Assembly (NCBI GenBank): GCA_009993955.1
Contig: JAACSL010000020.1
Span: 1 to 64,000 of the forward strand
Direction: 5' to 3'
From: Paraglaciecola sp.
Lineage (GTDB): Bacteria > Pseudomonadota > Gammaproteobacteria > Enterobacterales > Alteromonadaceae
Length of the DNA stretch: 64,000 bases
Each line of letters starts with the position of its first letter. Position 1 is the stretch's first letter. Position numbers and translations under genes: made by a program. This document shows positions 38,060 to 46,623 of the stretch, piece by piece. The notes beneath the pieces were generated by a model that saw only the letters and a list, made by a program, of their open reading frames with translations, had not been told where the DNA came from and did no database searches.

Positions 38060-38698
38060 TTAGCGAATTGGCTTTTTGACTAAGGGTTTGAGAGACGTTT
38101 CGTATTTTTGCTTGAGGGCTTCAATACTGCCAATGATCATGGTTACCGTGATATCTTCAATGGTTTGCCGACTGACATTGTGGCGTGTTAGGTAATGCCC
38201 GGCGGCGGCTGGCATACCAAAAGAAATATCCACCGCTGGCAATGCAACACTCATATCAATACCAAAATTATCCCGCACAACTTTTGCCAAATAAAGCACC
38301 GCTGTTTCGCGACTGTATTCAGTAGGATCACCATGGTCCTCAAGGCTTGGTTCTGAGGCAAGACGATCAAGTATTAAGCCTCTCTCTTCCATATAGGTTA
38401 GATACGCAGCGGTGACGCGTCTTACAAGTTGCTCAAAAGTCTCGGCACTCTCTGCGGCCTTGTTTTGTAGAATGCGTAATCGTTTGTATTCTCTGCGCAA
38501 CAGGGTCTGCAACAATTCTTTCATGCTCGGGTAATAAGCATAAACCAGACCTTTACTTATTCCCGCTTCCCTACCGAGTCTCTCCATGCTCAAAGCAGAC
38601 ACTCCCTCATTCGCGATTAATTCAGCCGCGCGATCTAGGATCAAATTTTTCCTTACCTCAGGTGAGAGTCGAGTGCGGGTTTTTTTTGCTTCTGCCAT
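38060..38698 (-). CDS. TetR family transcriptional regulator
   Basis: A 212-residue DNA-binding regulator. The N-terminal helix-turn-helix is in LSMERLGREAGISKGLVYAYYPSMKELLQ; the rest is an all-helical ligand-binding domain. The frame is open to 38839, but the ATG at 38698 gives normal family length. It lies next to the catabolic genes and is the best candidate to bind the three 20-bp palindromes at 41447, 41477 and 42442. Upstream of its own start, TCCGTCAATAG carries only a half-site (about 38733-38741), so strong autoregulation is not evident. The inducer is presumably the compound degraded by this cluster. Confidence 0.88.
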   Translation of the reverse strand: MAEAKKTRTRLSPEVRKNLILDRAAELIANEGVSALSMERLGREAGISKGLVYAYYPSMKELLQTLLRREYKRLRILQNKAAESAETFEQLVRRVTAAYLTYMEERGLILDRLASEPSLEDHGDPTEYSRETAVLYLAKVVRDNFGIDMSVALPAVDISFGMPAAAGHYLTRHNVSRQTIEDITVTMIIGSIEALKQKYETSLKPLVKKPIR

Positions 38699-38927
38699 AT
38701 AGCTGGTGATGATAATTATGCTAAGAAACTGTCCGTCAATAGTATGGATGGGCAGATGAAAAGCAAGCATTGTCTTTTGACGAATTGGCAAGGAACTTGA
38801 TAGCTTTGTTAAGGGCATATAGATAAAACTAATATGCAATTGTTAGCGGATTAAAAAAGACTCCGCAAAAAATGCGGGGCCAAGATACCTGAGACACCTT
38901 CAGGATTTCAACACACTTTTATTGAGG

Positions 38928-41382
38928 TTACTCAAATCGATAGGTGACACGCACACCATAAGTCCTTGGGTCAAGATAATTTGGTGTGCGGTAACGACCT
39001 ACTAAGGAGTTATCAACGCCTAAGCCGGTTATAGACGCTTCATCAGATGCATTTTTTACAAATGCTTCGAACTGCCACACATCATCCAGATCTCTGAGGG
39101 TTACACTCAAGTCAGATTGATGCCAACTGTCCTGCAAGTCTGTGGCAATGTTGTACAGGCGAGTATAAAATTTATCCTGCCAAAAGGTTTGTGCTCTGTA
39201 GGTAATCTCCCAGTTGTCGCTTACTTCATGGCTATATTGGATGCCAAACTGAACTGAACTTTCCGGAGAGAATTGCAAGGTTTTGCCTTTCAAATTGACC
39301 GGACCAGAGCCCGAAGGAGCAGAAATATCTGGTGAGGTAAAGAAGTCTTCTTTAATTTCGGTATCCAACAACGCCAGATTTAGATTGATGCGCAAGCCCT
39401 CTAGAGGCATAGAAAGAAACTCAAATTCGGCCCCTTTCACATCGGCATCGACGTTAGTATTAAACGTCGTACCATCGCCCAAAATACCACCTACTTGTAA
39501 ACCATCATACTGATAGACAAACGCGGTGATATTGGCCTGGAATGTGCGTTCTGCGAAAGTATTTTTGGTACCAAGCTCCAAGGCATTGATATATTCCGGA
39601 TCGAATGTTGGGAAGGAGGATTCACTTGCTCCTGGGTTTATACCACCCCCCTTATAACCACGAGATAATGTGCCAAAAAACAGAGTCTCTTCGGTAAGTT
39701 CAAGGTCGGGACTGTAGCTAAGGCCAATTTTGCCGGTTACTTCTTCCCAAGCTGTCTAGATCAAAGTCACTGGTTAAATAGGAACCGGGGGTAAAGGGAT
39801 AAATGTCCAGAGGTGAGATTGTGCGGGTTTTTACTTCTTTTTCTTCTTCGGTGTATCTGAGACCAACTGTTAATTTGAGGTCCTCGTTGATGTCATAATA
39901 ACCCTCACTGAATACTGCCCAGGACGTTGTTTTTAGTTCCGGAGTTTGAAAACTAAACGCGCCTAGCTCGTCGGGTAATGCTTTAAATGCGACAACAGCT
40001 GTTAACTCTGGCAGAAAAAACTCAACCAAAGACTCTGCATCATAATCCAAATAAAAGGCGCCAGCCGTAAAGTTAAACGGCGCATCTTGATAAGAGGCGA
40101 TCCTAAATTCTTGGCTCCACTGTTTACTGGCAGCATAATCTGTGCGCACGGTGCTATGTCTGGTGGTCAATTCACTGCGACCGCTAGGTAACAATAATGT
40201 CTGTGGCGTCAACATGGCATCACCACCATCACCACTATCAAAATCCCTTTCTGCCTGAGATTCCCTGTCATGATAAGCAGAGACTGAGGTAAACACATAA
40301 TCACCAAATTCATAATTGAACTCAAATGATACTAAGAGATCTTCAGCATTGAATACTGGTTGGTAGTCCATGCGAACTTTTCTGGGATCGCTGGGGTTGC
40401 TACGAGGAGAGCCATCTAGATTAGTATTATAAAAATCTGGGCGGGTAGTATAACCAAGCGCCCCTAATAACCCTGATAAACCTCCATTGGCTAGAGACCC
40501 GTCGGTAAAACTAGTATTGGGGAACTCATTGCCTAAGGTCTCACTGTTGTCACAACCAAGTACTGGATCTGCCTTACACAAAATGCCTACTACACCACTG
40601 CGGTCACTATTTTCTTTAAAGTACTGGGCAAACAAAAATCCATTTGCTTTGTCACTGAATTCAAAGCTAGTAGAGCTGCGCAGCGACCACTGGTCACGTC
40701 CGTCAAGGGAATCAAAACCGACATTTTCAGCAACATTTTCGGTGTAACCGTCACGTTTTACGGTGTTAAAGGCAAAACGTTGAAGCACATTTTCACTAAG
40801 AGGAATATTGACGTAACCGCTTGTTCTCAGACCATTATAATTGGCAAATTCGGTAGTGATTGAGGCTTCGAATATTTCATCGGGTCGTCTGGTAATCGTA
40901 TTCATTACCCCAGCTGTTGTATTACGGCCAAACAATGTTCCCTGTGGACCACGCAGTACTTCAATAGACTCCAAATCGTAAAATTCGTTTTGAATGGTAT
41001 TTGCGGTTAGATACACACCGTTAATGTGCACACCCAAGCCGGGATCAGCGGTAGCCGACACTGCCGTATTGCCAACGCCTCTCACGCTAAAACTTCCGTT
41101 CCCTGCAACCATGGCATTTGGCACTGCAAACTGGATGTCTAACGCATCCTCAATATCCTGATCTTCTAGCATGGTGCGACTAAAGGCACTTATTGCAATA
41201 GCGGTGTCTTGAAGAGACGTTATGCGTTTTTGTGCAGTGACTTCTATTATTTCGAGACCGACATTTTCTTTTTTCTTTTTGTCGTCAACTGCTTGTGCCA
41301 CGTCTTGAGCTATTGCAGATAAAGTAAAGGGTAATAGGGCAACAATACAAAACGTTGGTTTTATTAGATTTTTCTTTGGCAT
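38928..41382 (-). pseudogene. TonB-dependent receptor gene with one-base frameshift
   Basis: The gene would encode about 817 aa: signal peptide (ALLPFTLSAIAQ), TonB-box/plug (IEVTAQKRITSLQDTAIAIS, VLRGPQGTLFGRNTTAGVMN) and barrel ending VRVTYRFE. Frame one stops at 39718 after DLDS. Removing one base of the AA at 39749-39750 restores DS-WEEVTGKIGLSYSPD and the sequence continues without a stop to 38928. The start has GGGAGG 6 bases upstream. The frameshift could be genuine or a sequencing error, since both halves are otherwise intact. It is related to receptors of catabolic clusters in sphingomonads and marine gammaproteobacteria, and is controlled by two palindromic operators. Confidence 0.88.
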
Positions 41383-41446: not shown

Positions 41447-41466
41447 TATTGAACAATTAGTCAATA
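41447..41466. promoter_or_regulatory. Operator 1 (TetR-type palindrome) at the TBDR promoter
   Basis: TATTGAACAATTAGTCAATA: 6-bp inverted arms around 8 bases. It covers about +1 to +20 of the predicted TBDR transcript and lies exactly 30 bases from operator 2, placing both on the same DNA face. Confidence 0.75.
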
Positions 41467-41472
41467 GTTGAA

Positions 41473-41501
41473 AATTTATTGACTGATCGTTCAATAGTCA
41501 A
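41473..41501 (-). promoter_or_regulatory. Predicted promoter of the TBDR gene
   Basis: On the minus strand TTGACT (41496-41501) and TAAATT (41473-41478) are 17 bases apart. The spacer is filled by operator 2, and operator 1 lies at the start site, an arrangement expected for repression. Confidence 0.6.
41477..41496. promoter_or_regulatory. Operator 2 (TetR-type palindrome) at the TBDR promoter
   Basis: TATTGACTGATCGTTCAATA; its reverse complement TATTGAACGATCAGTCAATA matches operators 1 and 3 outside a five-base centre. A further half-site GTCAATA follows at 41497-41503. Confidence 0.75.
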
Positions 41502-41620
41502 TATGTTTTTGTAAAATATTTGTTAAACAGTCTGTTTTTATTTTTCAGAAAGAATATTTGTTCAATTAAAACAAATGGTTAGTTAACGCTCTGGGTGAAT
41601 TGATATTTAGAATATCAATA

Positions 41621-42388
41621 CTAAAAATTGACTGTTTTTATCGCTCCGCCATCCACACGCAGATTTACACCGGTAATATTCGATGCTGCTGGACTGGCCA
41701 AAAACACCGCCGCATTTGCTACTTCCTGAGCTGTACCAAGACGGTTAAAAACGGAGATAGCTTCTGCACGTTTGAATAGTTCTGGTTGATGTTTCTCAAC
41801 GCTCTGCCAGAAGCCATTCTCATGATAAATGGGGCCAGGAGAGACTAAATTAACGCGAATGTTGTCTTTACCCAGCTTGTTGGCTAGCTGAGTAGCATAA
41901 GAAATCAACGCAGCTTTCATCGCCCCATATTCTGTCTCAGTAGGCATATTAGCGGTCATAATGGAGGCAATTGACGCTATGTACACGATGGAGGTGTCTT
42001 TGCCTTGTAATAAGTGGGGTAGGGCTAATTCGGTGGCACGTATGTGTTGCAATAAATCTGCTTCAAAGGCCTGCTTCCAACGTTCTAGGCCATGAAAGGT
42101 ATTCATGCTTGTAACGTTTGAAACGAGTAAGTCAAGGCCGCCTAGGTCGGCGATTGCGGTGTGAAACCATTGTTCAAATGCCTGTGAATTACTAACATCA
42201 ACGCTGTTGCCGTATACCGTTGCACCTTCAGCACGCCATTTGTTTATGGCAGATTGCAATGCCTCCTCACCCCTTGCGCATGTAGCAATGGCGGCGCCTT
42301 CATTGATGAGAGTTTGTGAGATTGCAAATCCGATACCTCGGCTACCGCCCGTCACAATTGCACGTTTGTTTCTCAGACCAAGATCCAT
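41621..42388 (-). CDS. SDR-family oxidoreductase (catabolic cluster)
   Basis: Cytosolic short-chain dehydrogenase of 255 aa with the cofactor motif TGGSRGIGFAIS, SNVTS in place of the usual NNAG, Ser in ASIAS, and Tyr/Lys in EYGAMKAAL. The end GVNLRVDGGAIKTVNF is standard. An ATG at 42409 is in frame, but AAGGA lies 8 bases before the ATG at 42388. It is divergent from the PQQ dehydrogenase gene and both share operator 3. As the only clearly cytosolic enzyme of this cluster it probably oxidises or reduces a hydroxy/keto product after uptake. Confidence 0.87.
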   Translation of the reverse strand: MDLGLRNKRAIVTGGSRGIGFAISQTLINEGAAIATCARGEEALQSAINKWRAEGATVYGNSVDVSNSQAFEQWFHTAIADLGGLDLLVSNVTSMNTFHGLERWKQAFEADLLQHIRATELALPHLLQGKDTSIVYIASIASIMTANMPTETEYGAMKAALISYATQLANKLGKDNIRVNLVSPGPIYHENGFWQSVEKHQPELFKRAEAISVFNRLGTAQEVANAAVFLASPAASNITGVNLRVDGGAIKTVNF

Positions 42389-42430
42389 AATGTTTTCCTT
42401 AAGACTCATTTGTAATGTAAGACAAAATTA

Positions 42431-42459
42431 ATTCTATACACTATTGAACTAATCGTCAA
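42431..42459 (-). promoter_or_regulatory. Predicted promoter of the SDR gene
   Basis: Minus-strand TTGACG (42454-42459) and TAGAAT (42431-42436), 17 bases apart, about 45 bases before the start codon and overlapping operator 3. Confidence 0.6.
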
Positions 42460-42461
42460 TA
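42442..42461. promoter_or_regulatory. Operator 3 (TetR-type palindrome) in the divergent promoter region
   Basis: TATTGAACTAATCGTCAATA, the same 20-bp element as at the TBDR promoter. It covers the -35 boxes of both divergent promoters, so one bound repressor could silence both the SDR and the PQQ dehydrogenase genes. Confidence 0.75.
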
Positions 42462-42472
42462 ATGTTTACATT
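42444..42472 (+). promoter_or_regulatory. Predicted promoter of the PQQ dehydrogenase operon
   Basis: TTGAAC (42444-42449) and TACATT (42467-42472), 17 bases apart, about 75 bases upstream of the start codon and overlapping operator 3. Confidence 0.5.
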
Positions 42473-42547
42473 TGTGTAACATTGTTAGTAATGTAAGCAA
42501 TACGGTGCGCTAAAAGCAGATGGTGTGCGGGAATGATTGGAGTAGGC

Positions 42548-44416
42548 ATGAAGATAAGAATTGACAGTAAGCGGACGTTGCTGTGGGGCGCTCTGCTCAG
42601 TATGTGGACAGTGAGTTCACCTATACTGGCGGCGGAAGTATCTGTTGATACCATGTTGTCAGAGGGGGAAAAGCACTTCCAAGTATTTTGCTCAAGCTGT
42701 CATTTGGGGGCAATGCTCGAAGCCCCAAAATTAGAGGCACTGCGTCTATATCCTCCTTCGCGTATCGTTGAAGCGCTTGAATCGGGTGTGATGAGCACGA
42801 TAGGTTTATCCATGTCAAAGCAAGATAAACAAAACGTGGCCTTTTACTTAACAGGTGAGTTGGCGGAAGATAATCGGCAGGAAACTCATTTTAGTTGCCC
42901 AGATAAAAAGGTCAGCACGCCCAAACTCAATATTGCCGCAAGCTGGAATGGCTGGGGTGCTGAACAAGCAAATACTCGTTATCAGCAATATGAAACTGAA
43001 ATAACCCCCAAAAATGTGCAAGATTTAAAATTAAAGTGGGCCTTTGCCTTTCCACAAGCAACCCGAGTTCGTGCTCAGCCTGTTGTTACTCCGCAAATGA
43101 CTTATATTGGCAGCCAGGAAGGCATCGTATATGCGCTCGATACTGAAACAGGTTGTGCTCACTGGCAGTATCAGGCTGAATCAGAAGTGCGAGGCGCTGT
43201 TTATTTGCACCATGATGAAAGCGGCATTCCCAATACTTTGTTATTTGGTGACTTTAAGGCCAATGTCTATGCCCTTGATGCCCAGACTGGCGCCTTATTA
43301 TGGCGTAGCAATATTGCTTATCATCAGCTTGCCACGGTGACAGGCTCTGTAATTGCAGATAAGCACAGGGTCTACGTACCGTTATCGTCTACAGAAGTGA
43401 TCCCTGCTGCACGTCCCGATTATGCATGTTGCACTTTTCGTGGCGGATTGGTTGCGCTTGACATTGAAACTGGGCAGACCGTTTGGACTACTTACACCAC
43501 AGATGAATCTCAACCTACTGGTGAAAACTCAGTCGGCACGAAACAATTTGGCCCTTCTGGCGCACCTATTTGGTCAGGCCCGACTTTGGATGCCAAGAGG
43601 GGCCTAATATATGCCACTACAGGTCAAAACTATTCTTCACCCGCCACGGCTACCAGTGACGCCGTTTTGGCCATAGACATCAACAATGGTGAAATCAAGT
43701 GGGTCACACAAGTGACTAAAGATGATGCATGGAATGGCGCATGTGTGCGCAAGACACCAAATTGTCCAGAGGAAAATGGCCCTGACTTTGATATTGGTGC
43801 CTCAGCGATGTTAGTCACGGATAAATCAGGTAAAGATAGATTAATCATCGGGCAGAAATCCGCCATGGTATATGCCCTTGACCCTGACCATAGAGGCAAG
43901 ATCTTATGGCAATTGCGTCTTGGCAGCGGTGGCACCATGGGAGGCGTGCATTGGGGGATGAGCTCTGATGGACAACAGGTATATGCCGGTGTTTCTGACC
44001 TACCTACAAACAATCCTTATAAAGAGGGAAAACCTCAGCCAGGACTGAATGCAATCGACTTGGTTACGGGCAAGCGTCGCTGGCATTACGCCCCACCAAA
44101 CATCTGCAATAAAGAAGATAAATATCAATGTTTTAACGGTATATCTGCAGCAGTAAGCAGCTCTCCAGGGTTGGTTTATTTTGGTGGTCTAGACGGTATG
44201 TTTCGGATAGTGGACGAATCCTCTGGAGAAGTATTGTGGGAATTCAACACTAAACAAAACATTGCAACAAGTAACGGTGTCCAGGGTTACGGTGGTGCCA
44301 TTGAAGCTGACGGTCCTGTGATCGCCAACGGATTGGTATTTGTTACCTCTGGTTATGACAAGTGGGGAGAAGCACCGGGGAATTTATTATTGGTTTTCTC
44401 ATTAGAGGGTAAGTAA
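42548..44416 (+). CDS. Exported PQQ-dependent dehydrogenase with N-terminal cytochrome c domain (polyvinyl-alcohol-dehydrogenase-like)
   Basis: Periplasmic quinohaemoprotein of 622 aa. A signal peptide ends SSPILAAE, a cytochrome c domain with haem site CSSCH lies about residues 45-115, and an eight-bladed PQQ propeller follows (repeats such as IVYALDTETGCAHWQYQ, GLVALDIETGQTVWTTY). Adjacent cysteines in YACCTFRGG correspond to the vicinal disulfide of quinoprotein alcohol dehydrogenases. The haem-first order resembles polyvinyl alcohol dehydrogenase. An ATG at 42533 is in frame, but GGAG lies 5 bases before the ATG at 42548. It should oxidise an alcohol group in the periplasm and pass electrons to the respiratory chain. 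PQQ synthesis genes are not in the window. Confidence 0.88.
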   Translation: MKIRIDSKRTLLWGALLSMWTVSSPILAAEVSVDTMLSEGEKHFQVFCSSCHLGAMLEAPKLEALRLYPPSRIVEALESGVMSTIGLSMSKQDKQNVAFYLTGELAEDNRQETHFSCPDKKVSTPKLNIAASWNGWGAEQANTRYQQYETEITPKNVQDLKLKWAFAFPQATRVRAQPVVTPQMTYIGSQEGIVYALDTETGCAHWQYQAESEVRGAVYLHHDESGIPNTLLFGDFKANVYALDAQTGALLWRSNIAYHQLATVTGSVIADKHRVYVPLSSTEVIPAARPDYACCTFRGGLVALDIETGQTVWTTYTTDESQPTGENSVGTKQFGPSGAPIWSGPTLDAKRGLIYATTGQNYSSPATATSDAVLAIDINNGEIKWVTQVTKDDAWNGACVRKTPNCPEENGPDFDIGASAMLVTDKSGKDRLIIGQKSAMVYALDPDHRGKILWQLRLGSGGTMGGVHWGMSSDGQQVYAGVSDLPTNNPYKEGKPQPGLNAIDLVTGKRRWHYAPPNICNKEDKYQCFNGISAAVSSSPGLVYFGGLDGMFRIVDESSGEVLWEFNTKQNIATSNGVQGYGGAIEADGPVIANGLVFVTSGYDKWGEAPGNLLLVFSLEGK

Positions 44417-44510
44417 TTGATTGCTTATCAACTTCACTTTTAATCGGTTAAATCAATTGCAAAGCCAGTACAACAGGTCTGAACTGGTGAATTTGCATTA
44501 GGAGAGCGTG

Positions 44511-45584
44511 ATGCATTTTTTTAAGAATCTGCTAATTACCAGTTTTATGGTGGCAACCATGTCAACGACTAACGCATTAGAAGTAGACAAAGACGCTTCT
44601 ATTAAAGATTCCCATACAAGCATTATGGGCATCAATCATATTGGTTTGTCAGTGAAGAACTTGGATCAAGCGTTGTCTTTTTATCAGAGAGCAACTGGAT
44701 TTGAGTTGATAAAACGGGAAAAAGTGTTTGCCAATAAGAATGCAGATGCACTTTTCGGTGGTGAAAATCTGCAATACGAAGTGGCAACCTTAAAAGCGCC
44801 CAATATGTTGTTTGAACTCACCGAGTTTGCCAGTAACAAAGACGCAAGATTAAGTGATACGCCTGTTCAGGGACCGGGTATGACGCATACCTGTTTTCAG
44901 TCTCCTGAAGCAGATTCTGGTTACACTAAGTTTGCTAAGGCAGGCACTCGTTTTGTTACCACAGGAGATGGTCCTGTTGATATAGGTGGCTATGGCGTTA
45001 CTTATGCGTACGGCTATGACCCTGAGGGCAATATGTTTGAATTAGAGCAGTTGGATGGAAATGTCTTGGCTCGGGCTGGTTATGACAATGCTTGGCAAAC
45101 TCATGGTTTCAGTATGTGGATGTCTCAGGTATCCCTGGCCACTCCTGATATTGATAAATTGATGGTTTTTTATCAAAAAGTGTTGGGGATTAAACCTTAT
45201 CGCACCACCCATGTCTCCAATAATCCGAAGATTGATAGTATTGCCAATTTTGCTAATACAGATTTAGACGGCGGTTGGTTTAAATTGAATGATAAATCTA
45301 AGGTAATGGAGTTTTGGCAATTTAATTCGCCTAAAACGGAGATCTATCAAGGCAAACGCAAGACTACTGATTTAGGCTACAGCTACTCTTTTGAAGTAAG
45401 AGACATTCAACAAGAATATAAACGTCTAAAGTCACTTGGTGTTGAATTCATTAGTCCTCCTCAACGTGTTGGTGAGTTTTGGCAGGTGTATGCCAGAGAT
45501 ATAGACGGCAATATATTCTCACTGCGTCAAGCAGTTGAACCTAATTCTCCTTACTCCATCGTGAATTTTGATATTCCTGGGTGA
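44511..45584 (+). CDS. Exported two-domain VOC protein (dioxygenase/glyoxalase-like)
   Basis: About 357 aa with a signal peptide (ITSFMVATMSTTNA) and two vicinal-oxygen-chelate domains: GINHIGLSVKNLDQALSFYQ with YDPEGNMFELEQ, and VSLATPDIDKLMVFYQKVLG with ARDIDGNIFSLRQ. Two-domain VOC proteins are often extradiol dioxygenases or related metalloenzymes, but export is unusual. AGGAG lies 6 bases before the ATG at 44511; the GTG at 44508 is in frame but less likely. It lies about 95 bases after the PQQ gene and 37 bases before the hydrolase, so the three form an operon. The substrate is unknown. Confidence 0.82.
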   Translation: MHFFKNLLITSFMVATMSTTNALEVDKDASIKDSHTSIMGINHIGLSVKNLDQALSFYQRATGFELIKREKVFANKNADALFGGENLQYEVATLKAPNMLFELTEFASNKDARLSDTPVQGPGMTHTCFQSPEADSGYTKFAKAGTRFVTTGDGPVDIGGYGVTYAYGYDPEGNMFELEQLDGNVLARAGYDNAWQTHGFSMWMSQVSLATPDIDKLMVFYQKVLGIKPYRTTHVSNNPKIDSIANFANTDLDGGWFKLNDKSKVMEFWQFNSPKTEIYQGKRKTTDLGYSYSFEVRDIQQEYKRLKSLGVEFISPPQRVGEFWQVYARDIDGNIFSLRQAVEPNSPYSIVNFDIPG

Positions 45585-45621
45585 TAACATCCGTTAGTCA
45601 TTTGACGATAAGGAAGTGAAT

Positions 45622-46623
45622 ATGAAAGCCTCTCCTCTACGCATATTTAGACCTTTATTTACCTGTCTTTGGGCTTTGTGTTTATGTGCTGAGGCATTAA
45701 GCCAAGAACCCGAATCTAACAACACCGTAATCAGCGATCCCCTTGGTTTTTATCAGCCGTCTACTGTGGACTCTAAGGGAGTCAAACTTCATTACCTGGA
45801 AGCAGGTCAAGGTGAGGTCATGATATTTTTGCATGGCTATCCTTTTTACGCCTTAAGCTGGGATAAGTTACTCAGGCCTCTGTCTTCCTTCTACCATGTG
45901 GTTGCGCCGGACAACCGAGGTTACAACCTAAGTGATAAGCCTTCCAAGATTGAAGATTACAAGCTACGTAAACTGGTGGGTGATGTCGCTGCACTAGCAA
46001 ATAAGCTTTCACCGAATGATAGAATTATCTTAGTTGGTCATGACTGGGGAGGAGCATTGGCCTGGACTTTTGCCCAAGTGCATCCGCAGCGCGTGAGCAA
46101 AGTCATCGTGATTAATGCCCCACCCTTTAACGTGTTGCTGGATAGCCTTAAAAATGATCCTGAACAACAACAAGCATCATCTTATATGGAGATACTCAAA
46201 AGCGGTAAGGTCGAAGAACTGTTTGCGCAAACAGGGCCGGAGATGCTGTGGAATTATGGTTTTAATAAGCTCCATACAGCAGGTCAGTTAGATGATGTCT
46301 TTAAACGAGAATTTTTTGCAGCATGGCGACAACCAAAGGCACTAAAATCTGCTTTAAACTGGTATCGTGCAAATATTCCGCCCTTCGATAAAATAGGTGA
46401 AAGCAGTTACTATCCAGTCAATGGAACGCGTATAAAGGTGCCCGCTTTGTTGATTTGGAGTGAAAATGAACGAACCTTTAGTCGCAGCAACATTGATAAA
46501 ACAGCTGAGTTAACTGATGACTTTCGACTGGAATGGATCATGGATACTGGACATAGCCCTTTTCTAGACAAAACAGAGCGAGTCATCGCTAAGATAACCA
46601 CATTCCTAGCGCCCGACAAATAA
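45622..46623 (+). CDS. Exported alpha/beta hydrolase (epoxide hydrolase/dehalogenase-like)
   Basis: A 333-residue protein with a signal peptide (CLWALCLCAEALSQ) and an alpha/beta hydrolase fold. Motifs are FLHGYPFYALSW (oxyanion), APDNRGYNLSDKP, the nucleophile elbow VGHDWGGALAW with Asp in the nucleophile position, and the catalytic His in MDTGHSPFLD. An Asp nucleophile is found in epoxide hydrolases and haloalkane dehalogenases rather than esterases. AAGGAAG precedes the ATG at 45622. It is the last gene of the PQQ-VOC-hydrolase operon, converging on the helicase gene 21 bases away. Confidence 0.86.
   Translation: MKASPLRIFRPLFTCLWALCLCAEALSQEPESNNTVISDPLGFYQPSTVDSKGVKLHYLEAGQGEVMIFLHGYPFYALSWDKLLRPLSSFYHVVAPDNRGYNLSDKPSKIEDYKLRKLVGDVAALANKLSPNDRIILVGHDWGGALAWTFAQVHPQRVSKVIVINAPPFNVLLDSLKNDPEQQQASSYMEILKSGKVEELFAQTGPEMLWNYGFNKLHTAGQLDDVFKREFFAAWRQPKALKSALNWYRANIPPFDKIGESSYYPVNGTRIKVPALLIWSENERTFSRSNIDKTAELTDDFRLEWIMDTGHSPFLDKTERVIAKITTFLAPDK

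Follow-up and report, generated by a model that had tools for sequence, protein, structure and literature searches.

Is a small gene cluster for uptake and oxidation in marine bacteria governed by one regulator and, if so, which one? In the window, i.e., the whole stretch of 64,000 nucleotides analysed, from contig C20 in a genome of 4.16 Mb (G000), an earlier note had pointed to three near-identical 20-bp palindromes, the second of them on the minus strand, and had proposed a single repressor for the whole pathway, most simply the TetR protein encoded at 38060. The palindromes are there, at coordinates identical to those it gave, and we consider it highly likely that they are the operators of that protein, predicted to act as a local repressor. 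Judged from sequence, this is very probably a local TetR regulon of an ordinary sort, whose novelty is in its details and not in its kind. What is gained is the passage from an inferred regulator assignment to a regulon with exact predicted operators, corrected promoters and an unlinked target in a relative.

The first predicted operator, O1 (TATTGAACGATCAGTCAATA; 41477-41496, minus strand), lies inside the spacer between the -35 and -10 boxes of the promoter of a TonB-dependent receptor (TBDR) gene. The second, O2 (TATTGAACAATTAGTCAATA; 41447-41466, plus strand), is at the expected start of TBDR transcription, and the third, O3 (TATTGAACTAATCGTCAATA; 42442-42461, plus strand), separates the SDR gene from the PQQ dehydrogenase gene, which is transcribed away from it. 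Measured start to start in the window sequence, O1 and O2 are 30 bp apart, the spacing that had been claimed for them.

How unusual are such sites? A whole-genome scan for the motif found exact copies at O1, O2 and O3 and nowhere else in the 4.16 Mb. With as many as 3 mismatches allowed, 11 matches fall in the window, which are 8 distinct places as O1-O3 match on both strands, while shuffled windows average 2.19 and none of 100 reaches 11. For the genome at the same threshold, the count is 220 against 186 with a reversed-pattern control, and with so little bulk excess it is the exact copies, and where they are placed, that carry the signal. A further 20 places in the genome carry one or two mismatches (two with one, 18 with two) and all were inspected, without a convincing further target being found among them. 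Sixteen sit within mechanical ORFs of at least 100 aa, two of these (C8:92882 and C81:21491) also preceding another ORF, by 33 and 52 bp. The four outside such ORFs are a palindrome on contig C69, to which we return, C2:1474, 678 bp from the next listed start, C30:164600, which is without a nearby start, and C45:36358 (17.5 bits), which adjoins HGSNAT-like and FabA-like genes and, considered as a target, was judged to be chance. The one place with three mismatches in this genome to be inspected was 38722. Viral contigs gave scattered single matches in the motif scan, among the matches listed.

What would be controlled? On the minus strand the receptor is split across two frames, an N-terminal part of 554 aa with plug and barrel domains (39718..41382) and a C-terminal part in another frame (38928..39581). 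The longest open frame, 554 codons in the window, is 816-829 codons in six relatives, so the split (38928-41382) is either an assembly error or a sign that the receptor is being lost. The SDR oxidoreductase gene (41621..42409, minus strand; adh_short_C2, 159.2 bits) is followed across the O3 interval by that of the PQQ dehydrogenase (42533..44416, plus strand; PQQ, 106.7 bits), in which a cytochrome-c-like N-terminal part is accompanied by a Cytochrome_CBB3 score of 22.5 bits, under its cut-off of 27. Next on the plus strand come genes for a two-domain VOC/glyoxalase-fold protein (44508..45584; assigned by domain match) and an epoxide-hydrolase-like alpha/beta hydrolase (45616..46623; Abhydrolase_1, 99.7 bits), whose closest solved structures are epoxide hydrolases (E 2.2e-44). 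The gaps are 91 bp from PQQ to VOC and 31 bp from VOC to hydrolase, the 91-bp gap has no operator-like match (p=0.41), and the three genes form a probable operon of which the hydrolase gene is the last. Family searches of the cluster proteins returned general family names, with no substrate named. A terminator-like hairpin in the TBDR-TetR interval (38863..38877, minus strand) is a consensus match only, from a scan that found 13 such sites where shuffles lead one to expect 10.6.

The promoters themselves need care. A simple promoter scan gave 17 promoter-like sites where shuffles gave 20.6, hence no excess, and for that reason the promoter calls rest on conservation. The predicted TBDR promoter is TTGACT-17-TAAATT (41473..41501, minus strand): its -35 box (41501-41496) has its last base in common with O1, its -10 box is at 41478-41473, and O2 lies just downstream of the latter. 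That one TBDR site fills the promoter spacer and the other lies at the start site was already claimed, and sequence match and conservation both agree with such a placing relative to the predicted promoter. The predicted SDR promoter is TTGACG-17-TAGAAT (42431..42459, minus strand), with TTGACG in 5/5 loci and TAGNNT likewise. O3 had been said to cover both divergent promoters. The overlap holds, but the PQQ promoter as first scanned, TATACA-17-AATAAT on the plus strand at O3, is not conserved and has been replaced by TTGAAC-17-TACATT (42444..42472, plus strand), predicted from hexamers and spacing that are kept in all five loci, with the variants TTGCAC at -35 in L039 and TATATT at -10 in L035. 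It follows from this reassignment that the arms of O3 are back-to-back -35 boxes, an arrangement conserved in each of the five loci that have the SDR|PQQ pair, and the lasting asymmetry of O3 is explained by each arm doubling as a promoter element.

At the receptor gene too the architecture recurs. In eight of 10 TBDR promoter regions, all three paralogue loci included, TTGACT stands directly before the operator-like stretch, ending on its first base; the exceptions are L035, with TTGAAT, and L036, from which it is absent. Two copies of at least 11 bits are found in four of the seven non-paralogous TBDR regions (the window, L035, L162 and L194), at 30, 30, 29 and 30 bp respectively. One good and one weak copy are present in L039 (32 bp; 5.3 bits, the weak one being the spacer copy) and in L036 (30 bp; 4.9 bits). 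The L040 TBDR region has no second copy and its promoter copies are degenerate.

Are the sites kept where the regulator is kept? For the comparison, loci L034, L035, L039, L040 and L041 were taken as genomes G002, G008, G015, G021 and G009, as their contig coordinates agree, and were counted once; the species names attached to G genomes depend on this matching. The genus set is 22 genomes. With a scoring matrix built from the window's three sites alone, and each intergenic region set against 1000 dinucleotide shuffles, the cluster promoter regions of seven relatives (SDR|PQQ, TBDR, and SDR or VOC upstream regions) reach p<0.05 in 13/13 cases and p<0.01 in 12/13, these being uncorrected p-values for hand-picked regions of unequal length, taken from gene maps. 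At p=0.044 the TBDR region of L040 is the weakest of them, and its best match is away from the promoter. By the same matrix none of 11 control regions reaches p<0.05, the lowest value being 0.057. Exact copies in the genus set number nine (three in G000, two in G018 and one each in G008, G021, G002 and G010), of which eight are on promoters of cluster genes or their orthologues. The ninth, in G010, is within a TBDR ORF in a genome without a close TetR, and was taken as chance.

Intact TetR orthologues, of at least 76% identity, occur in six of the 22 genus genomes (G000, G002, G008, G015, G018 and G021), SDR orthologues of at least 75% in the same six, and PQQ orthologues in five of those six and in none of the others among the 60 genomes searched (E<=1e-80). 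In G005, VOC and hydrolase genes and a PQQ fragment are on a 4177-bp contig and a close TetR or SDR was not found, so co-occurrence of TetR with the whole cluster is imperfect; G005 may be a true exception, or its assembly may have a gap. In G002 (P. mesophila by contig coordinates) TetR and SDR are on contig C44 and the single motif copy at up to 1 mismatch, an exact one, is on C86, where it has on one side a TBDR orthologue, whose two parts are 67% and 79% identical, and on the other a hydrolase gene (45%) in divergent orientation. That unlinked target, detected by the motif alone, has the same 30-bp tandem pair as the TBDR promoter of the window. The choice of the TetR at 38060 as the simplest candidate for a single repressor is supported by the promoter sites of relatives, by the co-occurrence of TetR and SDR in 6/22, by the unlinked G002 target, and by a dissociation from another TetR, that of contig C69, in genome distribution.

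Eight named loci have a relative of the TetR: five are from Paraglaciecola and three from MAGs, of which two carry the label Cellvibrionales and the third Alteromonadaceae. In the two Cellvibrionales-labelled MAGs (L036 and L038) a TetR orthologue, of 78% and 81% respectively, is accompanied by an SDR gene and by one for a TBDR or a VOC protein, and either horizontal movement of the cluster or a binning error would account for it. L037 has a TetR orthologue of 79% with the cluster absent within the 18.6 kb examined, and 36 bp before an unrelated ORF there is the start of a near-site (13551). In P. polaris (L041; G009:C129:17565-18020) the TetR orthologue is in three pieces inside one 157-aa open frame and the SDR match is limited to the C-terminal part; from its sequence, the locus looks like one in decay. 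A class-wide search for the TetR (369 genomes, a sample of a larger group, with no more than 8 candidates scored; E<=1e-30) returned its own genome only, among the matches listed.

What kind of protein is it? The gene (38060..38698, minus strand) starts with the ATG at 38698, from which orthologues align, and encodes a TetR-family regulator of 212 aa, the proposed repressor (Pfam TetR_N, PF00440, 49.6 bits against a cut-off of 24), with an all-helical predicted structure of mean pLDDT 78.1. The BetI-type C-terminal domain (PF13977) has no match in it. The top NCBIfam model, FasR, scores 35 bits, far under its cut-off of 330, and Foldseek places FasR first and a HapR 15th, with no clear subfamily. 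Literature searches on TATTGAAC with TetR, or on Paraglaciecola, TetR, PQQ and TonB, gave nothing on the regulator among the matches listed.

Does it also control itself? In the TetR promoter there is a weak candidate operator, TATTGACGGACAGTTTCTTA (38722..38741, minus strand; 3 mismatches, p=0.021), which is overlapped by a -10-like TACTAT (38744-38739). Three of nine TetR upstream regions, the window included, are at p<0.05 (L034 0.001, L041 0.004, the window 0.021), and only L034 and L041 among the nine regions scored have better counterparts of the 38722 site. Accordingly worded, the claim of one repressor over the whole pathway stands, as a prediction, for the TBDR, SDR and PQQ promoters, and TetR control of its own promoter in the window genome is weakly indicated. 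The TetR promoter has, separately, a conserved block at 38739-38766, TTGCTT-16-TACTAT in the window, of which CTTGC is kept in 10/10 upstream alignments and ACTAT in 7/10.

How might such a regulon operate? When inducer is absent, TetR dimers would occupy O1, in the spacer, and O2, at the start and approximately three helical turns away, and would keep RNA polymerase from transcribing the receptor gene. On O3, a dimer would cover the opposed -35 boxes and so silence SDR and PQQ in both directions, the VOC and hydrolase genes included. The inducer, probably imported substrate or an early product, would then release TetR; that it might be an epoxide or an alcohol is a guess from the presence of a hydrolase and a PQQ dehydrogenase. 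From the DNA we infer that the protein binds, that it represses and does not activate, that the operon exists and that there is an inducer of this sort.

Could the same TetR instead activate, or both activate and repress, as is described for Vibrio LuxR, which is TetR-type (PMC2628434)? We think this unlikely. The protein's best NCBIfam model and best fold match are both FasR, named as an activator in NCBIfam, and to that extent activation has something in its favour, but O1 fills a spacer, O2 is on the expected start and O3 is over both -35 boxes, and it is because of this occupancy, together with -35 boxes near to consensus, that repression is preferred; promoters with TTGACT or TTGACG and 17-bp spacing would seemingly have little need of an activator. 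The use of TTGAC-type -35 boxes as part of the palindrome arms, and the small genome-wide excess at 3 mismatches, might alternatively be taken to mean that the likeness of the sites is a product of promoter constraint or of chance in AT-rich DNA. That reading is extremely improbable: dinucleotide shuffles and control regions give no such scores, O2 is neither a -35 nor a -10 element and nevertheless there is a good copy at 29-30 bp in 4/7 TBDR promoters, and the exact G002 copy came from the motif alone.

A competitor for the sites is a second TetR with a nearly identical operator. At G000:C69:56042-56061 (L008 6043-6062), flanked by genes for a FAD oxidoreductase and a Rieske oxygenase and near a gene for a BetI-type TetR (PF13977, 67.8 bits), is a perfect palindrome, TATTGAACACTCGTTCAATA, that departs from the motif by one mismatch, at one specified position, and to which the window matrix gives 23.2 bits. 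Both TetRs are present together in G000 and G018, and one could suppose that the C69 protein, or else a true LuxR/HapR protein, binds O1-O3. Genome distribution speaks against it. Near-full-length orthologues of the C69 TetR occur in G011, G018 and G020 (the match in G017 is broken), and the C69 palindrome is found in G000, G011, G018 and G020, 1-6 kb from a TetR of that type; G011 and G020 have the pair but nothing closely orthologous to the window TetR, while in G008, G015 and G021 the cluster sites are present and a C69-TetR orthologue is absent at E<=1e-30. From this split the two regulons are separable, though cross-talk between them is possible, from the likeness of the sites, in G000 and G018. 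As for LuxR/HapR proteins, members of the model NF040929 number 0/22 in the genus genomes at E<=1e-8, in a search without a positive control, the 14 control genomes also having none past the cut-off. Binding by any such other regulator is therefore very unlikely, and the window TetR, as repressor, is the reading that we prefer.

Why should Vibrio come to mind at all? The targets of LuxR, OpaR, SmcR and HapR are likewise 20-bp inverted repeats with outer TATTGA-N8-TCAATA, and the box of the LuxR/OpaR group, the MQSR box, is given in PMC3323551 as TATTGATAAA-TTTATCAATA; the outer hexamers and the length are common to it and the window operator, and the inner bases differ. The likeness of the proteins goes no further than the DNA-binding end. 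LuxR carries an N-terminal extension (PMC9736018), the window TetR and the HapR/OpaR group have an N-terminal KKTRTRLSPExRK stretch in common, and TetR residues 1-28 searched against PDB at E<=5 match HapR, OpaR, SmcR and LuxR only (six matches, two at about 0.002 and four at about 1.5). That the window TetR is itself a LuxR/HapR protein is ruled out, as NF040929 scores 25.5 bits on it against a cut-off of 350, over residues 4-68 only. Also, the Vibrio proteins are master regulators, whereas the window TetR seems to act locally, on no more than a few sites. It may read DNA as LuxR does. The opposed -35 boxes within operator arms and the likeness to the LuxR box are both of use for regulator prediction and for avoiding false LuxR-box calls.

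Another parallel is CifR of P. aeruginosa, a TetR-type repressor encoded near an epoxide-hydrolase gene, which a small molecule releases from the promoter DNA of the cif operon (PMC8244358); a title cited there speaks of two CifR binding sites. The likeness, known here from sequence alone, is of a TetR-type gene near an epoxide-hydrolase-like gene. The CifR gene is divergent from the hydrolase operon, whereas the window TetR is downstream of the TBDR gene, shares its strand and is some 7 kb from the hydrolase gene, and the predicted window regulon adds TBDR, SDR, PQQ dehydrogenase and VOC genes to what the CifR circuit has.

One can go further, tentatively and with more doubt than belief, and propose that a local catabolic repressor reads DNA in the manner of the Vibrio quorum regulators, that the LuxR-box mode extends beyond quorum sensing and may have its origin in single-cluster repressors or be held in common with them, and that in paralogues the operator drifts with the helix-turn-helix. 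Paralogous TetRs, 50-53% identical to that of the window, are in L165, L164 and L163 (G008, G015 and G016), in clusters with a linked SDR (51-56%), a hydrolase (40-43%) and, more distantly related, a TBDR (27-29%) and a VOC protein (24-25%). In all three the best TBDR-promoter match is again after TTGACT, with a shifted half-site: the operator-like stretch has drifted to TAATGTAT or TAATGAAT-N4-GTTCAATA or GTGCAATA. The helix-turn-helix of the paralogues differs as well, NISKSTVYSYFPS against GISKGLVYAYYPS in the window TetR.
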